The notes below the pieces were generated by a model. That model ran no database searches. It had not been told where the DNA came from and was given only the letters and a program-made list of their open reading frames with translations. The position numbers and the translations under genes are program-made. From Aurantiacibacter spongiae (lineage in GTDB: Bacteria; Pseudomonadota; Alphaproteobacteria; Sphingomonadales; Sphingomonadaceae), in contig NZ_RPFZ01000001.1 of NCBI RefSeq assembly GCF_003815535.1, forward strand, positions 1,984,001 through 2,048,000: a stretch of DNA of 64,000 nt, written 5' to 3'. This document shows positions 33,091-40,383 of this stretch, piece by piece (the first letter of the stretch is position 1; every line of letters begins with the position of its first letter).

Positions 33091-33897
33091 TCAGGTTTTG
33101 CGATCGCCGGCCATGCGAAACGGGGCAAGGTGCGCCGGCAGAATCGGCACGTCCCGGTCTGACTGTGCATCGTCGACGCCGATGGCGATGGCATACTGCG
33201 GCGGTCGCGCGCGATAGGTGCGATGCAGGTAATCCCACCACGAAATCCCGCTCGACCAGTTGCTGTCCATTTCGGCGCGGACCTGGCTGTGATGAATACC
33301 GTGCATGCGCGGGGTCGTGACGATACGCGACAGGGCCGCGTCGATGTTGCGCGGCAGGCGCAGGTTCGAATGGTGGAACAGGATCGAGGCGAGGAAGAAC
33401 CGTCGCCACCATTGCAGCGTCGGCCGGTCGATTCCGGCGATGCGGACCTGAACCAGGCGCCAGGGTGTCGAGAGAACCATGTCGAGGAAGTGGAAGCGCA
33501 CCGCGGTCGAGGCGTCGAGGTCGGGGTCGACGTGATGAACCCTGTGAAATCGCCACAGGAACGGCGCTTTATGCGTGGCGACGTGCCACAGATAGAAGCC
33601 GTAATCCATCGCCAGAAAGGCCGCGATCCGTCCCGGAATGCCGCCCCCCAGCCCATGTTGCAGGCCCCGCCGCCTGCGTGCATTGCGCTGCGCGACGGCG
33701 TTCGAGAGCGGCGCCTCGCTCACCATGATAGCCGCCTGACAGGCCGCGCCCATCGCGGCGTTGCGGATCAGTCGGGGTAGCTGCTTGCGGGTCCGGCGGC
33801 GCAGGGGCGCGAGGCGTTCGGCCAGCAGCAGTCCGCCGATCGCAGCCGTTGCGAAGGCGAAAAGGGCGGTTCGTCGCAGGGTCACGCGAAACAACAT
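33091..33897 (-). CDS. Fatty acid hydroxylase / sterol desaturase family protein
   Basis: A 268-residue di-iron membrane enzyme. Membrane helices flank the histidine boxes H-V-A-T-H, H-R-V-H-H, F-H-H-S-N-L and H-G-I-H-H-S that bind the metals. The family hydroxylates or desaturates sterols, carotenoids, fatty acids or sphingolipids, so the substrate is open. ATG 33897 begins the first helix; the longer upstream frame lies over the glycosyltransferase gene and is not homologous. It is divergent (42-base gap) from the arsenosugar-type gene pair, so a link to that cassette is possible but unproven. Confidence 0.87.
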   Translation of the reverse strand: MLFRVTLRRTALFAFATAAIGGLLLAERLAPLRRRTRKQLPRLIRNAAMGAACQAAIMVSEAPLSNAVAQRNARRRRGLQHGLGGGIPGRIAAFLAMDYGFYLWHVATHKAPFLWRFHRVHHVDPDLDASTAVRFHFLDMVLSTPWRLVQVRIAGIDRPTLQWWRRFFLASILFHHSNLRLPRNIDAALSRIVTTPRMHGIHHSQVRAEMDSNWSSGISWWDYLHRTYRARPPQYAIAIGVDDAQSDRDVPILPAHLAPFRMAGDRKT

Positions 33898-33939: not shown

Positions 33940-34518
33940 ATGCGCGTTCCCACCGTCAATCTGTTCGCGAAGTTCCCGGTGCCGGGAAAGGCGAAGACGC
34001 GGCTGATCCCGGCCCTGGGGCCGGAGGGCGCGGCGGCGCTGCATCGCCGTCTGACGGAGCGGACATTGGCAAGGGTGCGAGCGAGCGGACTGCCCTTCGC
34101 AGTCCGTTACACCGGCGCGAGTGCTGGGGATTTCGCCGCCTGGCTTGGCGGGGACGTGCCGTTGACGGAGCAGGGCGAAGGCGATCTCGGGGAACGGCTG
34201 GCGCGCGTCGAGGCCCCCGCTATCCTGCTCGGAGCGGATATCCCGGACCTGTCCGAACGCCATCTCGCCGAAGCGGCGAGGGCATTGCGCGATCACGACA
34301 CGGTCATCGGTCCGGCAGCCGATGGCGGCTATTATCTGCTTGGTTTTACGACAGAATGCCCCGCGCTCTTCACCGGAATCGCGTGGGGCACGAAGACGGT
34401 CAGGAAAGGGACGATGAAGGCCATATCGGGCGCGGGACTGTCCTGCGCGGTCCTGCAAACCCTCCACGACTGCGACCGGCCGGAGGATCTGGCGCGCTGG
34501 CCGGACCTGACCGCGTGA
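33940..34518 (+). CDS. TIGR04282-type (arsenosugar-associated) glycosyltransferase
   Basis: A 192-residue GT-A-like transferase related to CofC-type nucleotidyltransferases. Marks are V-N-L-F-A-K-F-P-V-P-G-K-A-K-T-R-L at the N-terminus, L-L-G-A-D-I-P-D-L in the middle and G-P-A-A-D-G-G-Y-Y-L-L-G-F. Members are found with radical SAM proteins and ArsM in arsenosugar loci, which agrees with the genes that follow. Its TGA overlaps the GTG start of the next gene. The family call is strong; the reaction is unproven. Confidence 0.88.
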   Translation: MRVPTVNLFAKFPVPGKAKTRLIPALGPEGAAALHRRLTERTLARVRASGLPFAVRYTGASAGDFAAWLGGDVPLTEQGEGDLGERLARVEAPAILLGADIPDLSERHLAEAARALRDHDTVIGPAADGGYYLLGFTTECPALFTGIAWGTKTVRKGTMKAISGAGLSCAVLQTLHDCDRPEDLARWPDLTA

Positions 34519-35240
34519 AACCAGTCTCGGTCGTCATTCCGATGCTCGACGAGGAAGCGGCGTTGCCGAACCTCGTGGCGCGCCTCTCCCGGCTCGATCC
34601 GCCGCCGCTGGAAGTGATCGCGGTGGATGGCGGCAGCGGGGATGCCTCTGTGCTGGTGGCCGAGATCGCCGGCTGGCGCGTGGTGCGGTGCGAGCGTGGC
34701 AGGGGGCGGCAGATCAATGCCGGGGTCGCGGCAGCGCGCGCGGAGCATGTCGTGGTGCTGCATGCCGACACCCTGCCGCCGCGCGACATGGTGCGCGTGA
34801 TCGATGCCACGCTGGCGAATGGCAGGGTGGCGCTGGCCGGTTTCACGCCCGTCATTCGCGGCCGGGACAAGACGCGATGGGGAACCACGGCGCACAATTT
34901 CGCGAAGACCTGGTACGCGCCGCTCCTGTTTCGCCCGCACCTCTTCGTCCGGGGCGTGCGGCTCCTGTTCGGCGACCATGCGATGTTCTTCCGCCGCGAC
35001 CAGTTTCTCGAATGCGGCGGATGCGAGGACGGGGCCATGGTTATGGAGGAAGCCGACCTGTGCGTGCGGCTGGCGCGTTTCGGCAGGGTTCGCCTGCTGC
35101 GCCGGACCATCGTTACCTCGGACCGGCGGATCGCCGAGTGGGGCGCGCTGAAGGCAAACTGGATTTACCTCAAGGTCGGCGCGTTATGGGGTCTGGGCCT
35201 GCGCAACCGGCTGGAGCGGTACTATCCCGATATCCGCTAG
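34515..35240 (+). CDS. TIGR04283-type (arsenosugar-associated) glycosyltransferase
   Basis: A 241-residue family 2-like glycosyltransferase. It begins V-S-V-V-I-P-M-L-D-E-E, with V-D-G-G-S-G-D, G-R-G-R-Q-I-N-A-G, V-L-H-A-D-T (D-x-D type), F-G-D-H-A-M-F-F-R-R and E-E-A-D-L-C-V-R-L. The GTG start at 34515 overlaps the stop of the TIGR04282-type gene, so the pair is coupled. Convergent with the SDR gene, whose stop overlaps this one by four bases. Confidence 0.9.
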   Translation: MKPVSVVIPMLDEEAALPNLVARLSRLDPPPLEVIAVDGGSGDASVLVAEIAGWRVVRCERGRGRQINAGVAAARAEHVVVLHADTLPPRDMVRVIDATLANGRVALAGFTPVIRGRDKTRWGTTAHNFAKTWYAPLLFRPHLFVRGVRLLFGDHAMFFRRDQFLECGGCEDGAMVMEEADLCVRLARFGRVRLLRRTIVTSDRRIAEWGALKANWIYLKVGALWGLGLRNRLERYYPDIR

Positions 35241-36238
35241 GCCGGTTGGGGCAAGTATCCGCGCTCCACCCCGTACGCGATGAGCCGATCCAGCCAGGCG
35301 TTATCGGTGGCGGGGCAGGAAAGGCCCGTCACCTCGCGAAGGCGGGTGTCGTCGAAGCGGGGCGAGCGGGTGAAATAGGGGCCGAACGTGGCCAGCATCC
35401 GTCCCGCCAGCAGCCGTTCCGCCGGGGACAGCGCGGCGGGGTCGTAATCCGCCGGCCGCACGACCACCGGATCGGGCAGGTGCGCGGCTCGCGCTACGCC
35501 GTGGGCGAGTTCGGCAGCGGGTAGCGGGTCGGCGGCGACGAGATGGTAATGTCCGCCCGCTGCGGCATCGAACCGCTCGGCGAGGGCGACGATGGATGCG
35601 GCGACGTGATCGATGGGTACGAGATCGAGCGAGGCGGTCCCGGCGGCGGGAAAGCGCGTGACCTTGCCCCGCGCCATCAGGCGGAAGACATTGCACAACG
35701 AGGGAAACTGACGGATCCGACCGGTCGCGCTGTCGCCCAGCACGATCGAGGGGCGGGCGATGGCGAAGGCGGTTCCACCCTCCTCGATCACCCGCTCTCC
35801 CGCGGCCTTGCTCGCCTCGTAGCGATTGGTGAACCGCGTGCCCTCGGGCACCGGTCCTTCGGCGATAGGTCCGTCGCGCTGGCCGCAGACATAGGCGGTG
35901 CTGACATGCAGGAAGCCGGCTTCGGCGGCCTTCGCGAAGTCCATGGCGTTGCGCGTGCCCTCGACATTGACCGCGCTCAGTTCCTCCTGCGGCGCATCGA
36001 ATTCGAGCGAGGCGGCGCAATGGATGACGAGGTCGAACGCCGCGGGCTCGAGCCCCATCAGCGGCTGCCTGACATCGCCAGCGACCACGGTAACGCCGTT
36101 CACCGGCGCGCCGTCATTGCCGCGAATGTCCGGCGTTCGGCGCACCATCCCGATCATCCGGTGTCCCCGCTTCGCCAGACGCGCGCAGACCTCGCCGCCG
36201 ATCAGACCGGCTGCCCCGGTGACGAGAATCGTCAGCAA
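35237..36238 (-). CDS. Extended SDR / thioester-reductase-like NAD(P)-dependent protein
   Basis: A 333-residue Rossmann protein. It has the N-terminal L-V-T-G-A-A-G-L-I-G-G (G-x-x-G-x-x-G), V-I-H-C-A-A-S-L-E-F-D-A-P, V-N-V-E-G-T-R-N, H-V-S-T-A-Y-V and the catalytic Y-E-A-S-K. The A-A-S-L-x-F, V-N-V-x-G-T and R-P-S-I-V motifs are those of the NAD-binding-4 branch (fatty acyl-CoA and thioester reductases). The most likely start is TTG 36238, overlapping the ArsM gene end by seven bases, because the Rossmann motif begins right there. The frame is open to 36307. The role in the cassette is unknown. Confidence 0.8.
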   Translation of the reverse strand: MLTILVTGAAGLIGGEVCARLAKRGHRMIGMVRRTPDIRGNDGAPVNGVTVVAGDVRQPLMGLEPAAFDLVIHCAASLEFDAPQEELSAVNVEGTRNAMDFAKAAEAGFLHVSTAYVCGQRDGPIAEGPVPEGTRFTNRYEASKAAGERVIEEGGTAFAIARPSIVLGDSATGRIRQFPSLCNVFRLMARGKVTRFPAAGTASLDLVPIDHVAASIVALAERFDAAAGGHYHLVAADPLPAAELAHGVARAAHLPDPVVVRPADYDPAALSPAERLLAGRMLATFGPYFTRSPRFDDTRLREVTGLSCPATDNAWLDRLIAYGVERGYLPQPA

Positions 36239-37287
36239 CAGGCTGCGCCCGGCGCCCCCGACTGCGTGTTCGCCCTCGTCTGTCCGAAGGGCGTAGTCGC
36301 GCCGCAACCGGGAAAGACGCCGTAATGGTTTTGAAAATCGCCGATGAAGTCGAAATGCGGGGCAAAGCGCGTGTCGGCGAGCATTGTCCAGCTATTCCCG
36401 CAGACCGGGAAGACCCGCCCCGCCTCTATGGAATGGTGCGCGTCCAGATCGAACACGCGCCGCGCGCCGGGGACGGTTCCGCGATAGACGACGGCCTGCC
36501 CGTAATCCTCGCACTGCGGTTCCAGATCGCCGAGCCGGAACAGCCGGTAGGTGGCGGAGACGAAGGCGATACTGCCAAGCTTCGCCGCCACGTCGGCGTC
36601 CCCGATAGCGAGCGGCCGGTCGGTCACTAGGCGCGGGTCGGCGAAGCCGGCAGCCTTGGCGATCCGGTCGAAATCGCCCCAGTAGAGCGCGCCCGAAAGA
36701 CATTCCCCGTGCAGCACCGGATCGTCCCGAAGATGCGCGGGTACGCGGCGGTCGGCATAGACGTCCGAGAAATACAGTTCCCCGCCCGGCTTCAGCAACC
36801 GATGGGCAGCCGCGAAGACGGCCGGCTTGTCGGCAACGAGGTTGATGACGCAGTTGGAGACAATGACATCGAAACTCGCAGGTTCGAGCCCCAGCTCGTC
36901 CAGCCGTTCGATATCGCCTTCGACGAAATCGACATTGGCGTAGCCGAAGCGGTCGGCGTGCCAATCGAGATGGGCGCGGGCGACGGCGAGCTGTTCGGGG
37001 GTGGCGTCGACACCGGTGACGTGACCGTCCGGCCCGACGAGTTGCGCCAGCAGGTAGGCATCCTGCCCGCTGCCCGATCCCAGGTCGAGCACGCGGCATC
37101 CGTCCAGCAGTTGCGGCACCACCAGGCCGCAGCCGTAATAGCGGGCCTTCACCTCCTCGTGCACGTTGGCGAGCGCGTTGCGCACCGCGTCGGGCGGCGT
37201 TTCGAACGTGCAGCAGGCATCGGTGCGCAGGTCCGCCGATCCGCCCAGCACCTTGCCGTAATAGCGGCGCGAATTTTCCAGGTTCAT
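36232..37287 (-). CDS. arsM: ArsM-type arsenite S-adenosylmethionine methyltransferase
   Basis: Methylates As(III) stepwise to mono-, di- and trimethyl species. The 351-residue protein starts MNLENSRRYYGKVLGGSADL and has the SAM motif D-L-G-S-G-S-G-Q-D-A-Y (68-78). Cysteines at 25, 53 (Y-Y-G-C-G), 146 (S-N-C-V-I-N-L) and 196 (G-E-C-L-S-G-A-L-Y-W) match in context and largely in spacing the four conserved cysteines of characterised ArsM. The last two residues are a Cys pair. It is divergent from the flavoprotein gene (93-base gap) and coupled to the SDR gene. No ArsR gene is seen nearby. Confidence 0.92.
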   Translation of the reverse strand: MNLENSRRYYGKVLGGSADLRTDACCTFETPPDAVRNALANVHEEVKARYYGCGLVVPQLLDGCRVLDLGSGSGQDAYLLAQLVGPDGHVTGVDATPEQLAVARAHLDWHADRFGYANVDFVEGDIERLDELGLEPASFDVIVSNCVINLVADKPAVFAAAHRLLKPGGELYFSDVYADRRVPAHLRDDPVLHGECLSGALYWGDFDRIAKAAGFADPRLVTDRPLAIGDADVAAKLGSIAFVSATYRLFRLGDLEPQCEDYGQAVVYRGTVPGARRVFDLDAHHSIEAGRVFPVCGNSWTMLADTRFAPHFDFIGDFQNHYGVFPGCGATTPFGQTRANTQSGAPGAACC

Positions 37288-37380
37288 GCGGCGTCTCGCA
37301 TCCTCGATGGGGGGTTTCCCGGAATACATGCCAAGGTTCGGGTTCGTTTCCCAGCCCCGATCCGGTATCGCGTCTGGCGA

Positions 37381-38796
37381 ATGGACTATTCCCATGACGT
37401 TATCGTGATCGGCGGCGGCGCGGCGGGCCTGACCGCGGCGGGCGGGTGCGCGCTGTTCGGCCTGCGTGTGGCGCTGATCGAAAGCGGGGCGATGGGCGGG
37501 GAATGCCTCAATACCGGCTGCGTGCCGTCCAAGGCCCTGATCGCCGCAGCCGCCCGCGCGGCGGAGGCCCGCGTCGAGGAGCGGGCGGGCGTCACCATTG
37601 CCGCGCCCGACATCGACTGGCGGGGCGTGCGCGCCTTCGTCCGGCGCGCCATCGCCGACATCGCCCCGCATGACAGCCAGGACCGGTTTGAGGACATGGG
37701 CTGCGAGGTCATCCGCGAGCATGCGCGCCTGACCGGGCCGAAGACGGTCGAAGCCGGCGGACGCACACTGTGCGCGCCGCGCATCGTGGTCGCCACCGGC
37801 AGCGAGCCGGCGGTGCCGCCGGTCGAGGGGCTGGCGCAGGTGCCCTACCTGACGAACGAGACCCTGTTCGACCTGGACGAACGGCCCGAACACCTCGTGA
37901 TCCTGGGCGGAGGCAATGTCGGCATGGAGATGGCGCAGGCCTTTCGCCGGCTGGGCAGCGACGTGACCGTGATCGAGGCGAACGCCATCATGGGCCGCGA
38001 CGACCGCGATTCGGTCGCCGTCCTTGTCGCAGCGATGAAAGCCGAGGGCGTCGCCTTCGTGCAGGGCAAGGTGAACCGGGTATCGCGCCAGGGCGGCGGC
38101 GTGTCCGTGGAAGTCGGGGGCGGGACAACTCTCCTGGCGAGGCACCTGCTCGTCGCAACGGGTCGCCGGGCGCGGACCGGCGGGCTCGGGCTGGAGGAGC
38201 TCGGGATCGCGATGGGCGACAACGGCATTGCGGTCGATGCACGCCGCCGGTCCAGTCTGAAGCACATCTACGCCATCGGCGATTGCCGCGACGGACCCCG
38301 GCTGACGCACGTATCGGCGTACGAGGGATCGAACGTCGCGCTCGAGATCGCGCTGGGTGTTCCTGCCCGGGTCGACTGGCGCGCCCTGCCGTGGTGCACC
38401 TACACCTCTCCCGAGGTGGCGCAGGTTGGCCTGACCGAAAGCGAGGCGCGCAAGCGCTATGGCGACAGGGTGACGGTGGTGCGCGAACCCTTCGACGATA
38501 ACGAGCGCGCGATTGCGGAAGGGCGCACGAGGGGCCACATCAAGCTGATGCTGAAGGGGAAAAAGGTCGTCGGTGCCAGCATTTGCGGAGAGCGGGCCGG
38601 CGAGTTGCTGCTGCCCATCGGTCAGCTTATCACCGGCAAGGCCAGCACGTTCGCGCTGGGAAGCGCGGTCGTCGCCTATCCGACGCGCGCCGAGATCCTG
38701 AAGGCCGCCGCGTTCAGCGCATGGGAGCCGACCGTCTTCGGCACCTGCCCCCGCCGCTGGGCCGGACTGGTGCAGAAAATGCGGCGGGCGCGCTGA
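37381..38796 (+). CDS. MerA-like FAD pyridine-nucleotide disulfide oxidoreductase
   Basis: A 471-residue class I flavoprotein: FAD motif I-G-G-G-A-A-G (10-16), redox-active Cys42 and Cys47 in G-G-E-C-L-N-T-G-C-V-P-S-K, NAD(P) motif I-L-G-G-G-N-V-G-M-E and second FAD motif Y-A-I-G-D-C. In the dimerisation domain the usual H-P-T-x-x-E dyad reads A-Y-P-T-R-A-E, with Tyr replacing the catalytic His, as in mercuric-reductase-like members. It lacks the N-terminal HMA domain and a C-terminal Cys pair of MerA. Its TGA overlaps the radical SAM start, so the two act together. An arsenic-related reduction is inferred from context. Confidence 0.88.
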   Translation: MDYSHDVIVIGGGAAGLTAAGGCALFGLRVALIESGAMGGECLNTGCVPSKALIAAAARAAEARVEERAGVTIAAPDIDWRGVRAFVRRAIADIAPHDSQDRFEDMGCEVIREHARLTGPKTVEAGGRTLCAPRIVVATGSEPAVPPVEGLAQVPYLTNETLFDLDERPEHLVILGGGNVGMEMAQAFRRLGSDVTVIEANAIMGRDDRDSVAVLVAAMKAEGVAFVQGKVNRVSRQGGGVSVEVGGGTTLLARHLLVATGRRARTGGLGLEELGIAMGDNGIAVDARRRSSLKHIYAIGDCRDGPRLTHVSAYEGSNVALEIALGVPARVDWRALPWCTYTSPEVAQVGLTESEARKRYGDRVTVVREPFDDNERAIAEGRTRGHIKLMLKGKKVVGASICGERAGELLLPIGQLITGKASTFALGSAVVAYPTRAEILKAAAFSAWEPTVFGTCPRRWAGLVQKMRRAR

Positions 38797-39788
38797 TGGC
38801 AAACCGATCGAAAGCTCGCAACAAGCCTGCCGGCGCTTCCCCTTTCGCGGTGGAAGGGCAGCGGCTGGGCCGCGCCAAGTTCGCCGATCCGGACGTGACC
38901 GCGGACGGTTCGGCGCGCGCCAGCGTCTCGCTGCGCAAACTCGACACGCTGTGGTTCGCCACCGGCACGCTGTGCAACCTCGCCTGCGCCAACTGCTATA
39001 TCGAAAGCAGCCCGACCAACGACGCGCTGATCTACATGGAGGGCCGCCACGTCTCGCATTTCCTCGACGAGATCGAGGCCGAGGGCCGACCGTTGCGTGA
39101 AATCGGGTTCACCGGCGGCGAGCCGTTCATGAATCCCGACATCGTCGCGATGCTGGAGGAAGGGCTGGAGCGCGGATACGAGGTTCTCGTTCTCACCAAC
39201 GCGATGAAACCGATGCGCCGTCACGAGGCCGCGCTGATCGATCTGCGCCGGCGGTTCGGCGACCGGCTGACCCTGCGCGTCTCCATCGATCACCATACCC
39301 GCGCCGTGCATGAGGCGGAGCGCGGACCGGGAACGTGGGAGATCATGCTGGACGGGCTGCGCTGGTTGTCGGCAAACGGCTTTTCGATCGCCGCTGCAGG
39401 GCGCAGCGTGGCGGGCGAAACCGCCGAGCTGGCGCGACGCGCCTACGGCCTGCTGTTCGCGCGCGAAGGCATCGCGATCGACGCCGCCGACCCGTCGCGC
39501 CTGGTCCTGTTTCCGGAAATGGACGCGGATGCCGACGTGCCGGAAATCACCACCGAGTGCTGGTCCATCCTGGGCAAGTCGCCGGACGCGGTGATGTGTT
39601 CCAGCAGCCGCATGGTCGTGCACCGCAAGGGCGAGCCGGCCCCGCGCGTCGTCGCCTGCACGCTTCTGCCCTACGATCCGCAGTTCGATCTGGGAGCCAG
39701 CGTCGCCGAGGCGGACCGCGAAGTGCCGCTCAACCATCCGCACTGCGCGCGCTTCTGCGTGCTCGGCGGGGCAAGTTGTTCGGCATGA
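38796..39788 (+). CDS. Radical SAM protein of the arsenic cassette
   Basis: A 330-residue radical SAM enzyme. The [4Fe-4S] motif C-N-L-A-C-A-N-C has Cys60, 64 and 67, followed by Y-I-E-S-S-P-T-N-D and F-T-G-G-E-P (105-110). The C-terminus is cysteine-rich (V-V-A-C-T-L-L-P-Y-D, H-P-H-C-A-R-F-C-V-L-G-G-A-S-C-S), suggesting a second cluster. Arsenosugar ArsS transfers 5'-deoxyadenosine to dimethylarsenite; this protein holds the same genomic place but its C-x3-C-x2-C context (C-Y-I-E-S-S-P) differs from the C-H-V-D-A-G/S-P context I recall for ArsS, so it may be a different subfamily. The ATG overlaps the upstream TGA. Confidence 0.82.
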   Translation: MANRSKARNKPAGASPFAVEGQRLGRAKFADPDVTADGSARASVSLRKLDTLWFATGTLCNLACANCYIESSPTNDALIYMEGRHVSHFLDEIEAEGRPLREIGFTGGEPFMNPDIVAMLEEGLERGYEVLVLTNAMKPMRRHEAALIDLRRRFGDRLTLRVSIDHHTRAVHEAERGPGTWEIMLDGLRWLSANGFSIAAAGRSVAGETAELARRAYGLLFAREGIAIDAADPSRLVLFPEMDADADVPEITTECWSILGKSPDAVMCSSSRMVVHRKGEPAPRVVACTLLPYDPQFDLGASVAEADREVPLNHPHCARFCVLGGASCSA

Positions 39789-39825
39789 GCCGGACCTTTT
39801 GCGTTCGCCGGCGCGTTTGGCCTGC

Positions 39826-40309: not shown

Positions 40310-40383
40310 TGCCCCGTCGTCTAATGGTAAGACTACGGACTCTGACTCCGTCAATTGAGGTTCGAATCCTCACGGGGCATCCA
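40310..40383 (+). tRNA. tRNA-Gln (CTG anticodon)
   Basis: A complete cloverleaf. Acceptor TGCCCCG pairs with CGGGGCA, then discriminator T and encoded CCA (40381-40383). The anticodon stem ACGGA/TCCGT encloses loop CTCTGAC, giving anticodon CTG. The T arm carries GGTTCGAATCC. It lies between the DUF2147 and LOG-family genes. Confidence 0.97.

Follow-up and report, generated by a model that had tools for sequence, protein, structure and literature searches.

The 64,000-nucleotide window analysed here, a stretch of the Aurantiacibacter spongiae genome, carries at positions 33940-39788 a six-gene cassette that is probably of the arsenosugar type, with a radical S-adenosylmethionine (SAM) enzyme of an unnamed family, hereafter rSAM, in the place of ArsS. 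Alongside rSAM, the genes encode a TIGR04282 transferase, a TIGR04283-type transferase, a short-chain dehydrogenase/reductase (SDR), the arsenite methyltransferase ArsM and a MerA-like flavoprotein. The same gene set recurs in other genomes and is therefore more than a chance assembly, and its members keep the same company around ArsS. The gene association is strong; the chemical steps, the substrate and the final product are what we infer.

The rSAM gene (38796-39788, plus strand) was described in a first-pass annotation, made from the sequence alone, as encoding an unusual radical SAM motif and a cysteine-rich tail, and both features hold. The motif C60-x3-C64-x2-C67 (codons of residues 60-67 at 38973-38996, plus strand) is followed by YIESSP, and six further cysteines (255, 268, 288, 317, 321 and 328) lie in the C-terminal part (residues 255-328, at 39558-39779, plus strand). 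The same annotation judged the motif unlike that of known ArsS, and the TIGR04167 search that it proposed puts the protein outside ArsS: rSAM scored 54.9 bits against a cut-off of 300, over the core only, and lacks DUF3641 (PF12345; no match at E 0.001), a domain that scores 187.9 bits in the ArsS of locus L230. ArsS was thus ruled out as its identity. Although both proteins have the CX3CX2C motif, ArsS usually continues with HVxAxP where the window protein has YIESSP. By these sequence measures, rSAM is not a member of ArsS.

Assignment to the Rv1681 family (NF049973) was also rejected. This family gave the best NCBIfam match of rSAM (85.4 bits), but the match is restricted to residues 51-212, in the radical SAM core, and misses the cut-off of 380. 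The protein stays below the cut-off in the best 25 of its 40 NCBIfam matches, and Pfam recognised Radical_SAM and a 4Fe-4S domain, nothing else. A true Rv1681-family radical SAM protein (498 bits, L241) is encoded about 3.3 kb from a TIGR04282 gene, and TIGR04283 and one more radical SAM gene are close by; L241:5746-10847 and a like stretch of L242 hold this arrangement. The Rv1681-type protein is a possible third stand-in for ArsS.

Sequence comparison assigns the window protein to an unnamed family that splits into two clades. Clade A comprises its close relatives, found at 78 loci that belong, by record title, to Sphingomonadales, Rhodobacteraceae, Hyphomicrobiales, Acetobacteraceae and others, while clade B is a deeper group at about 32-40% identity; the alignment of the clade A and clade B profiles spans 305 columns. 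Across 50 clade A sequences (the window protein and those of 49 of the 78 loci), C60, C64, C67, C268 and C288 are invariant, and C255, C317, C321 and C328 are conserved in at least 90%. An AlphaFold2 model of the window protein (mean predicted local distance difference test score 89.1) found its best structural matches among radical SAM enzymes with twitch/SPASM-type C-terminal parts, to which the cysteine-rich part of the model aligns. Profiles of clade A and canonical ArsS match over 144 core columns (98.7%). The C-terminal cysteine order MC...C...HC-x2/3-C...C occurs in 108 of 110 clade A, 14 of 15 clade B and 47 of 47 ArsS proteins and in none of 1731 other open reading frames (at least 250 aa), with a pattern that was fitted to these same proteins and loosened once (previously 88/110, 14/15 and 47/47).

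The suggestion that the genes of the cassette serve one pathway was followed up by comparing neighbourhoods and gene content, and the genes do co-occur in other genomes. Among 147 genomes sampled from the order, rSAM (clades A and B; long or full-length matches with E to 1e-18) was found in 54 and TIGR04282 (E to 1e-20) in 56, with both present in 52 (Fisher p 2e-32, kinship ignored). At E 0.001 the counts were 63 and 61, the nine rSAM matches dropped being weak core matches and the five TIGR04282 matches likewise weak. The two rSAM genomes without TIGR04282 over threshold (G040 and G089) both have weak matches to it. The flavoprotein was detected in 37/54 rSAM genomes versus 5/93 others at E <1e-100, and in 52/54 versus 20/93 at an E limit of 1e-65; for methylthioadenosine (MTA) phosphorylase (MTAP; E to 1e-50) the figures were 48/54 versus 33/93. 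ArsM of the window type (E to 1e-60) is present in 30 of the 54, or 38 when a second, split-matching ArsM type is included, and 30 of the 31 genomes with window-type ArsM contain rSAM. ArsS (TIGR04167) was above its cut-off in none of the 147 genomes.

A second sample of 249 genomes covered the phylum. Here ArsS occurred in 102 genomes (E 1e-20; 100 over cut-off), all of the same phylum as the window organism and none of the same class, rSAM in 17 (E <1e-30) and TIGR04282 in 129 (E 1e-20), the latter in 93 of the 102 ArsS genomes, all 17 rSAM genomes and 19 genomes with neither. No genome in the sample combined ArsS with a full-length rSAM. Lowering the rSAM threshold to E 1e-10 gave 22 matches, of which five partial core matches (28-34% identity) were dropped: three in ArsS genomes (G181, G205 and G229) and two (G341 and G357) that correspond to the Rv1681-type proteins encoded in L242 and L241, respectively. 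As a caveat to the absence of ArsS from the class, a plasmid search counted three Mesorhizobium records that match ArsS to some extent.

TIGR04282, TIGR04283 and ArsM accompany rSAM in the window and in related loci, as they do ArsS. Within 7 kb of clade A rSAM (56 of the 78 loci, those flanked by 5 kb both upstream and downstream), TIGR04282 and TIGR04283 were each found at 24 loci, ArsM at 17, MTAP at 15, the SDR at 14, the flavoprotein at 12 and a fatty-acid hydroxylase at seven. The clade B sample of 20 loci, several on short contigs, contained TIGR04282 at 16, TIGR04283 and the flavoprotein at 13 each, a DedA/VTT protein at 12, ArsM at 11 and MTAP at nine. Around canonical ArsS (20 loci from the 102 ArsS genomes, picked to span families) we counted TIGR04282 and TIGR04283 at five loci each, the flavoprotein at four, the fatty-acid hydroxylase and MTAP at two each and ArsM at one; 13 of the 20 had none of these partners at the thresholds used. 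In 24 of the 30 loci L191-L220, a gene similar to arsM but of a different type (110-130 bits against the window ArsM) lies near ArsS. Canonical ArsS often stands apart from the transferase genes. Where it is clustered (L230, L234, L227, L235 and L238), its company is the same as that of rSAM, the shared genes being ArsM, TIGR04282, TIGR04283, the MerA-like flavoprotein, MTAP and the fatty-acid hydroxylase.

The likeness extends to individual operons. In L230 the ArsS operon consists of ArsS, flavoprotein, TIGR04283, TIGR04282 and ArsM, in L234 of MTAP, ArsS, VTT, flavoprotein, TIGR04283 and TIGR04282, and plasmid p1 of Cupriavidus KK10 (L263) carries ArsM, ArsS, flavoprotein, TIGR04283, TIGR04282 and MTAP on one strand. 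The clade B operons L243 (TIGR04282, TIGR04283, ArsM, rSAM, VTT-flavoprotein) and L151-L165 resemble these three. ArsM directly adjoins rSAM and shares its strand in L243, L244, L151-L153 and L155 of clade B and in L073 of clade A. MTAP is near and co-directional with rSAM in nine of the 20 clade B loci, lying between rSAM and TIGR04283 in L156, L157 and L160-L165 and adjoining rSAM in L244, and on a Burkholderia glumae plasmid annotated with arsS (L264) it adjoins TIGR04283. Its identity is given by TIGR01694, with 277.6 bits in L156 and 317.3 in L234 (cut-off 274.85).

These comparisons also bear on the remaining members of the cassette. The first-pass annotation had read the flavoprotein as a sign that the product goes further than a simple arsenosugar, an idea we abandon: the same type is found near canonical ArsS in four of the 20 loci (L229, L230, L234 and L236) and on the Cupriavidus plasmid, and because ArsS operons carry it too, it is no pointer to a novel product. 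The SDR lies near rSAM in clade A loci only (14/56, versus 0/20 in clade B and 0/20 at ArsS loci) and may be an extra to the cassette. In L227 and L235, canonical ArsS is immediately preceded by a gene of the window's fatty-acid hydroxylase type; together with the DedA/VTT protein of clade B, the hydroxylase is compatible with the lipid-linked product that the first-pass annotation thought possible, without showing one.

A radical SAM enzyme is described as adenosylating arsenic in arsenosugar synthesis in PMC12159101, which cites a study of ArsS. Because of the shared gene company, we assign this task to rSAM in the following proposal. ArsM would methylate arsenite to dimethylarsenite, while the flavoprotein, as a disulfide reductase, could supply the thiol reductant for the trivalent state. 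The rSAM enzyme would then cleave SAM and join the 5'-deoxyadenosyl group to arsenic, as ArsS does, giving a product that would resemble MTA with a dimethylarsinoyl group in place of the methylthio group. MTAP, encoded elsewhere in this genome and within the operon in related cassettes, could remove adenine to leave 5-dimethylarsinoyl-ribose-1-phosphate. The TIGR04282 protein, a relative of the nucleotidyltransferase CofC, may convert this arsenoribose-1-phosphate to a nucleotide sugar, from which the TIGR04283 protein would pass the arsenoribosyl group on to an acceptor, either glycerol, glycerol phosphate or a lipid. A literature search, for which most subscription papers were outside reach, found no paper with both arsenosugar and methylthioadenosine.

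A number of observations weigh against this proposal. The likeness of rSAM to ArsS in the C-terminal part is weak as homology: profiles of these parts alone matched at 24.3% probability with a score of 27.5, the maximum of 20 column shuffles being 21.1. In a tree with long branches, ArsS stood on one side and clades A and B, with two Rv1681-type proteins, on the other. Kinship is not taken into account in the Fisher tests, and the counts were made after weak matches had been removed. The MTAP copy of the window genome lies 129 kb beyond the window, with none near the cassette; six of the 54 rSAM genomes in the order sample lack MTAP, and at the 15 clade A loci where it is nearby it is never on the rSAM strand, so that its adjacency there may be passive. 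TIGR04282 and the flavoprotein occur without rSAM in four genomes of the order (G013, G031, G032 and G051). A further gap concerns ArsM itself, which was recognisable (E to 1e-25) in 21 of the 49 clade A rSAM genomes searched (drawn from the 78 loci) and absent from 28, including all 15 assigned by record title to Rhodobacteraceae or its genera. Eight sampled genomes of the window organism's taxonomic family have rSAM and TIGR04282 without ArsM (G050, G105, G118, G124, G129, G137, G139 and G142), and in the three of these whose loci were read, arsM is missing from between the SDR and the flavoprotein (L257 and L258) or between the SDR and rSAM (L256). Some of the 28 genomes may therefore use imported methylarsenicals or another substrate.

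The second of these options leads to a possible, if unlikely, alternative, in which rSAM, TIGR04282 and TIGR04283 form a core whose substrate is not arsenic and ArsM joined it in some lineages only. The 28 ArsM-less genomes fit such a history, as do the finding of TIGR04282 in 17 of 17 rSAM genomes across the phylum and the position of rSAM beside zwf-pgl-pgi in Rhodobacterales. Set against it are the presence of rSAM in 30 of the 31 genomes of the order with window-type ArsM and the loci in which ArsM adjoins rSAM co-directionally. Moreover, methylated arsenicals could be imported, and such import would explain the lack of ArsM; a phosphonate-type (PhnD/PhnE-type) transporter gene following rSAM on a Roseomonas plasmid, a single record, fits this and is possibly a methylarsenical importer. 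A broader version, which we consider rather unlikely, would have the core produce a ribosyl metabolite derived from the adenosyl group, in which the head atom could be something other than arsenic, with some other small substrate in the many ArsM-less Rhodobacterales; arsenosugar synthesis would then be a single branch within a wider pathway, as yet undescribed, and no fewer than three radical SAM types would serve that pathway (ArsS, the rSAM family and possibly the Rv1681 type).

MTAP can also be read differently. MTA is the by-product expected when SAM is cleaved for 3-amino-3-carboxypropyl transfer, and the MTAP genes near rSAM (9/20 clade B and 15/56 clade A loci) could serve to clear it if rSAM formed another kind of C-As bond. 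ArsL of the arsinothricin cluster would be the model for this: in PMC8552651, it is a CX3CX2C enzyme, as is rSAM, that adjoins ArsM and forms a C-As bond. However, the cluster described there consists of three genes, arsQML, whereas rSAM is accompanied by TIGR04282 and TIGR04283; no ArsL model was among the best 25 of the 40 NCBIfam matches of rSAM, and MTAP is also found in canonical ArsS neighbourhoods (L230, L234, L263 and L264), where an adenosyl group is transferred. We regard an ArsL-like reaction as very unlikely. That the genes share a lineage-bound neighbourhood and no single pathway is disfavoured, and hardly credible. While TIGR04282 is not within 7 kb of rSAM at 32 of the 56 clade A loci, genes that are set apart in a genome still co-occur there, and the set comes together again in other orders and on other strands, in distant families and also next to ArsS, which belongs to another radical SAM family.

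If the rSAM family does perform the task of ArsS in arsenosugar synthesis, many alphaproteobacteria have been overlooked as possible arsenosugar sources. The NCBI ArsS model is a natural marker for this synthesis, and it misses the rSAM family in all 147 genomes of the order. The recurrence of MTAP near both ArsS and the rSAM family suggests a concrete, testable route by which the ArsS product could have its adenine replaced, and the related gene sets suggest enzymes for the unsolved later steps of arsenosugar synthesis.

Within the window, all six reading frames of the cassette are intact and overlap as first annotated, with two genes on the plus strand, two on the minus strand and two on the plus strand. 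The TIGR04282 CofC-like transferase gene (33940-34518, plus strand) overlaps that of the TIGR04283-type family 2 glycosyltransferase (34515-35240, plus strand, GTG start) by four bases. Both proteins had been assigned by type, which stands for the former (180.9 bits, cut-off 134) and is less firm for the latter, which falls below the TIGR04283 cut-off over the full model length (167.3 versus 182; GT2 66.7 bits). The extended SDR of the NAD_binding_4 type (35237-36238, minus strand, TTG start; 119.9 bits) overlaps arsM (36232-37287, minus strand) by seven bases. Cys25, 53, 146 and 196 of ArsM, earlier proposed as its four conserved cysteines, are in register with the same four of its best solved relative, the ArsM of PDB 5evj (E=6.8e-107, alignment over residues 7-347), which we take to be from Chlamydomonas. 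The window ArsM scores below the cut-offs of the ArsM models NF008823 (174.5 bits, cut-off 263), NF040538 and NF038099. The MerA/lipoamide-dehydrogenase-like flavoprotein disulfide reductase (37381-38796, plus strand; C42-x4-C47) overlaps rSAM by one base and misses the cut-off in the best 25 of its 74 NCBIfam matches (MerA TIGR02053, 325.9 bits versus 454.45).

The divergent pairs arsM-SDR and flavoprotein-rSAM are separated by a 93-base gap (37288-37380) that is likely a control region; no sigma-70 consensus was found in it. A weak hairpin resembling a terminator, located where the rSAM gene ends (39778-39795, plus strand), is no better than chance, because two such hairpins were found in the region and 3.9 were expected in shuffles. 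Just beyond the cassette, the gene for a fatty-acid hydroxylase-like (OlsE-like) protein (33091-33897, minus strand; Pfam FA_hydroxylase 78.8 bits; NF052566 69.5 bits, below the cut-off of 475) diverges from the TIGR04282 gene. Base composition is uniform over the region, and a tRNA-Gln lies downstream at 40310-40383.

Further genes were seen around rSAM and ArsS elsewhere. An extracytoplasmic function (ECF) sigma factor and a zf-HC2 anti-sigma gene occur in the clade B cassette L156:6606-7523 and in the Burkholderia glumae ArsS neighbourhood (L264:3685-4478). A second radical SAM gene, mostly adjoining a DUF547 gene, is found in both ArsS and rSAM cassettes (L263:13413, L264:10045, L261:6595 and L061:2). 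On Roseomonas plasmid p546-1 (L261:5037-11997), TIGR04282, DUF547, the second radical SAM and clade A rSAM genes share one strand, followed by those of the PhnD/PhnE-type transporter and a metallophosphoesterase. In Rhodobacterales loci (L023, L033, L037 and others), rSAM diverges from zwf-pgl-pgi in a conserved arrangement; no ArsM was found in the genomes searched from these loci. Plasmid pHP-187 of Marinobacter adhaerens HP15 (L262:8818-9874) holds an unannotated clade B rSAM in two reading frames, which looks broken. On a Mycolicibacterium vanbaalenii plasmid (L265:4946-6762), two overlapping genes encode a PhnD/SsuA-type binding protein and a radical SAM protein that is only distantly related; CcdA, a thiol oxidoreductase and another radical SAM protein are encoded nearby.

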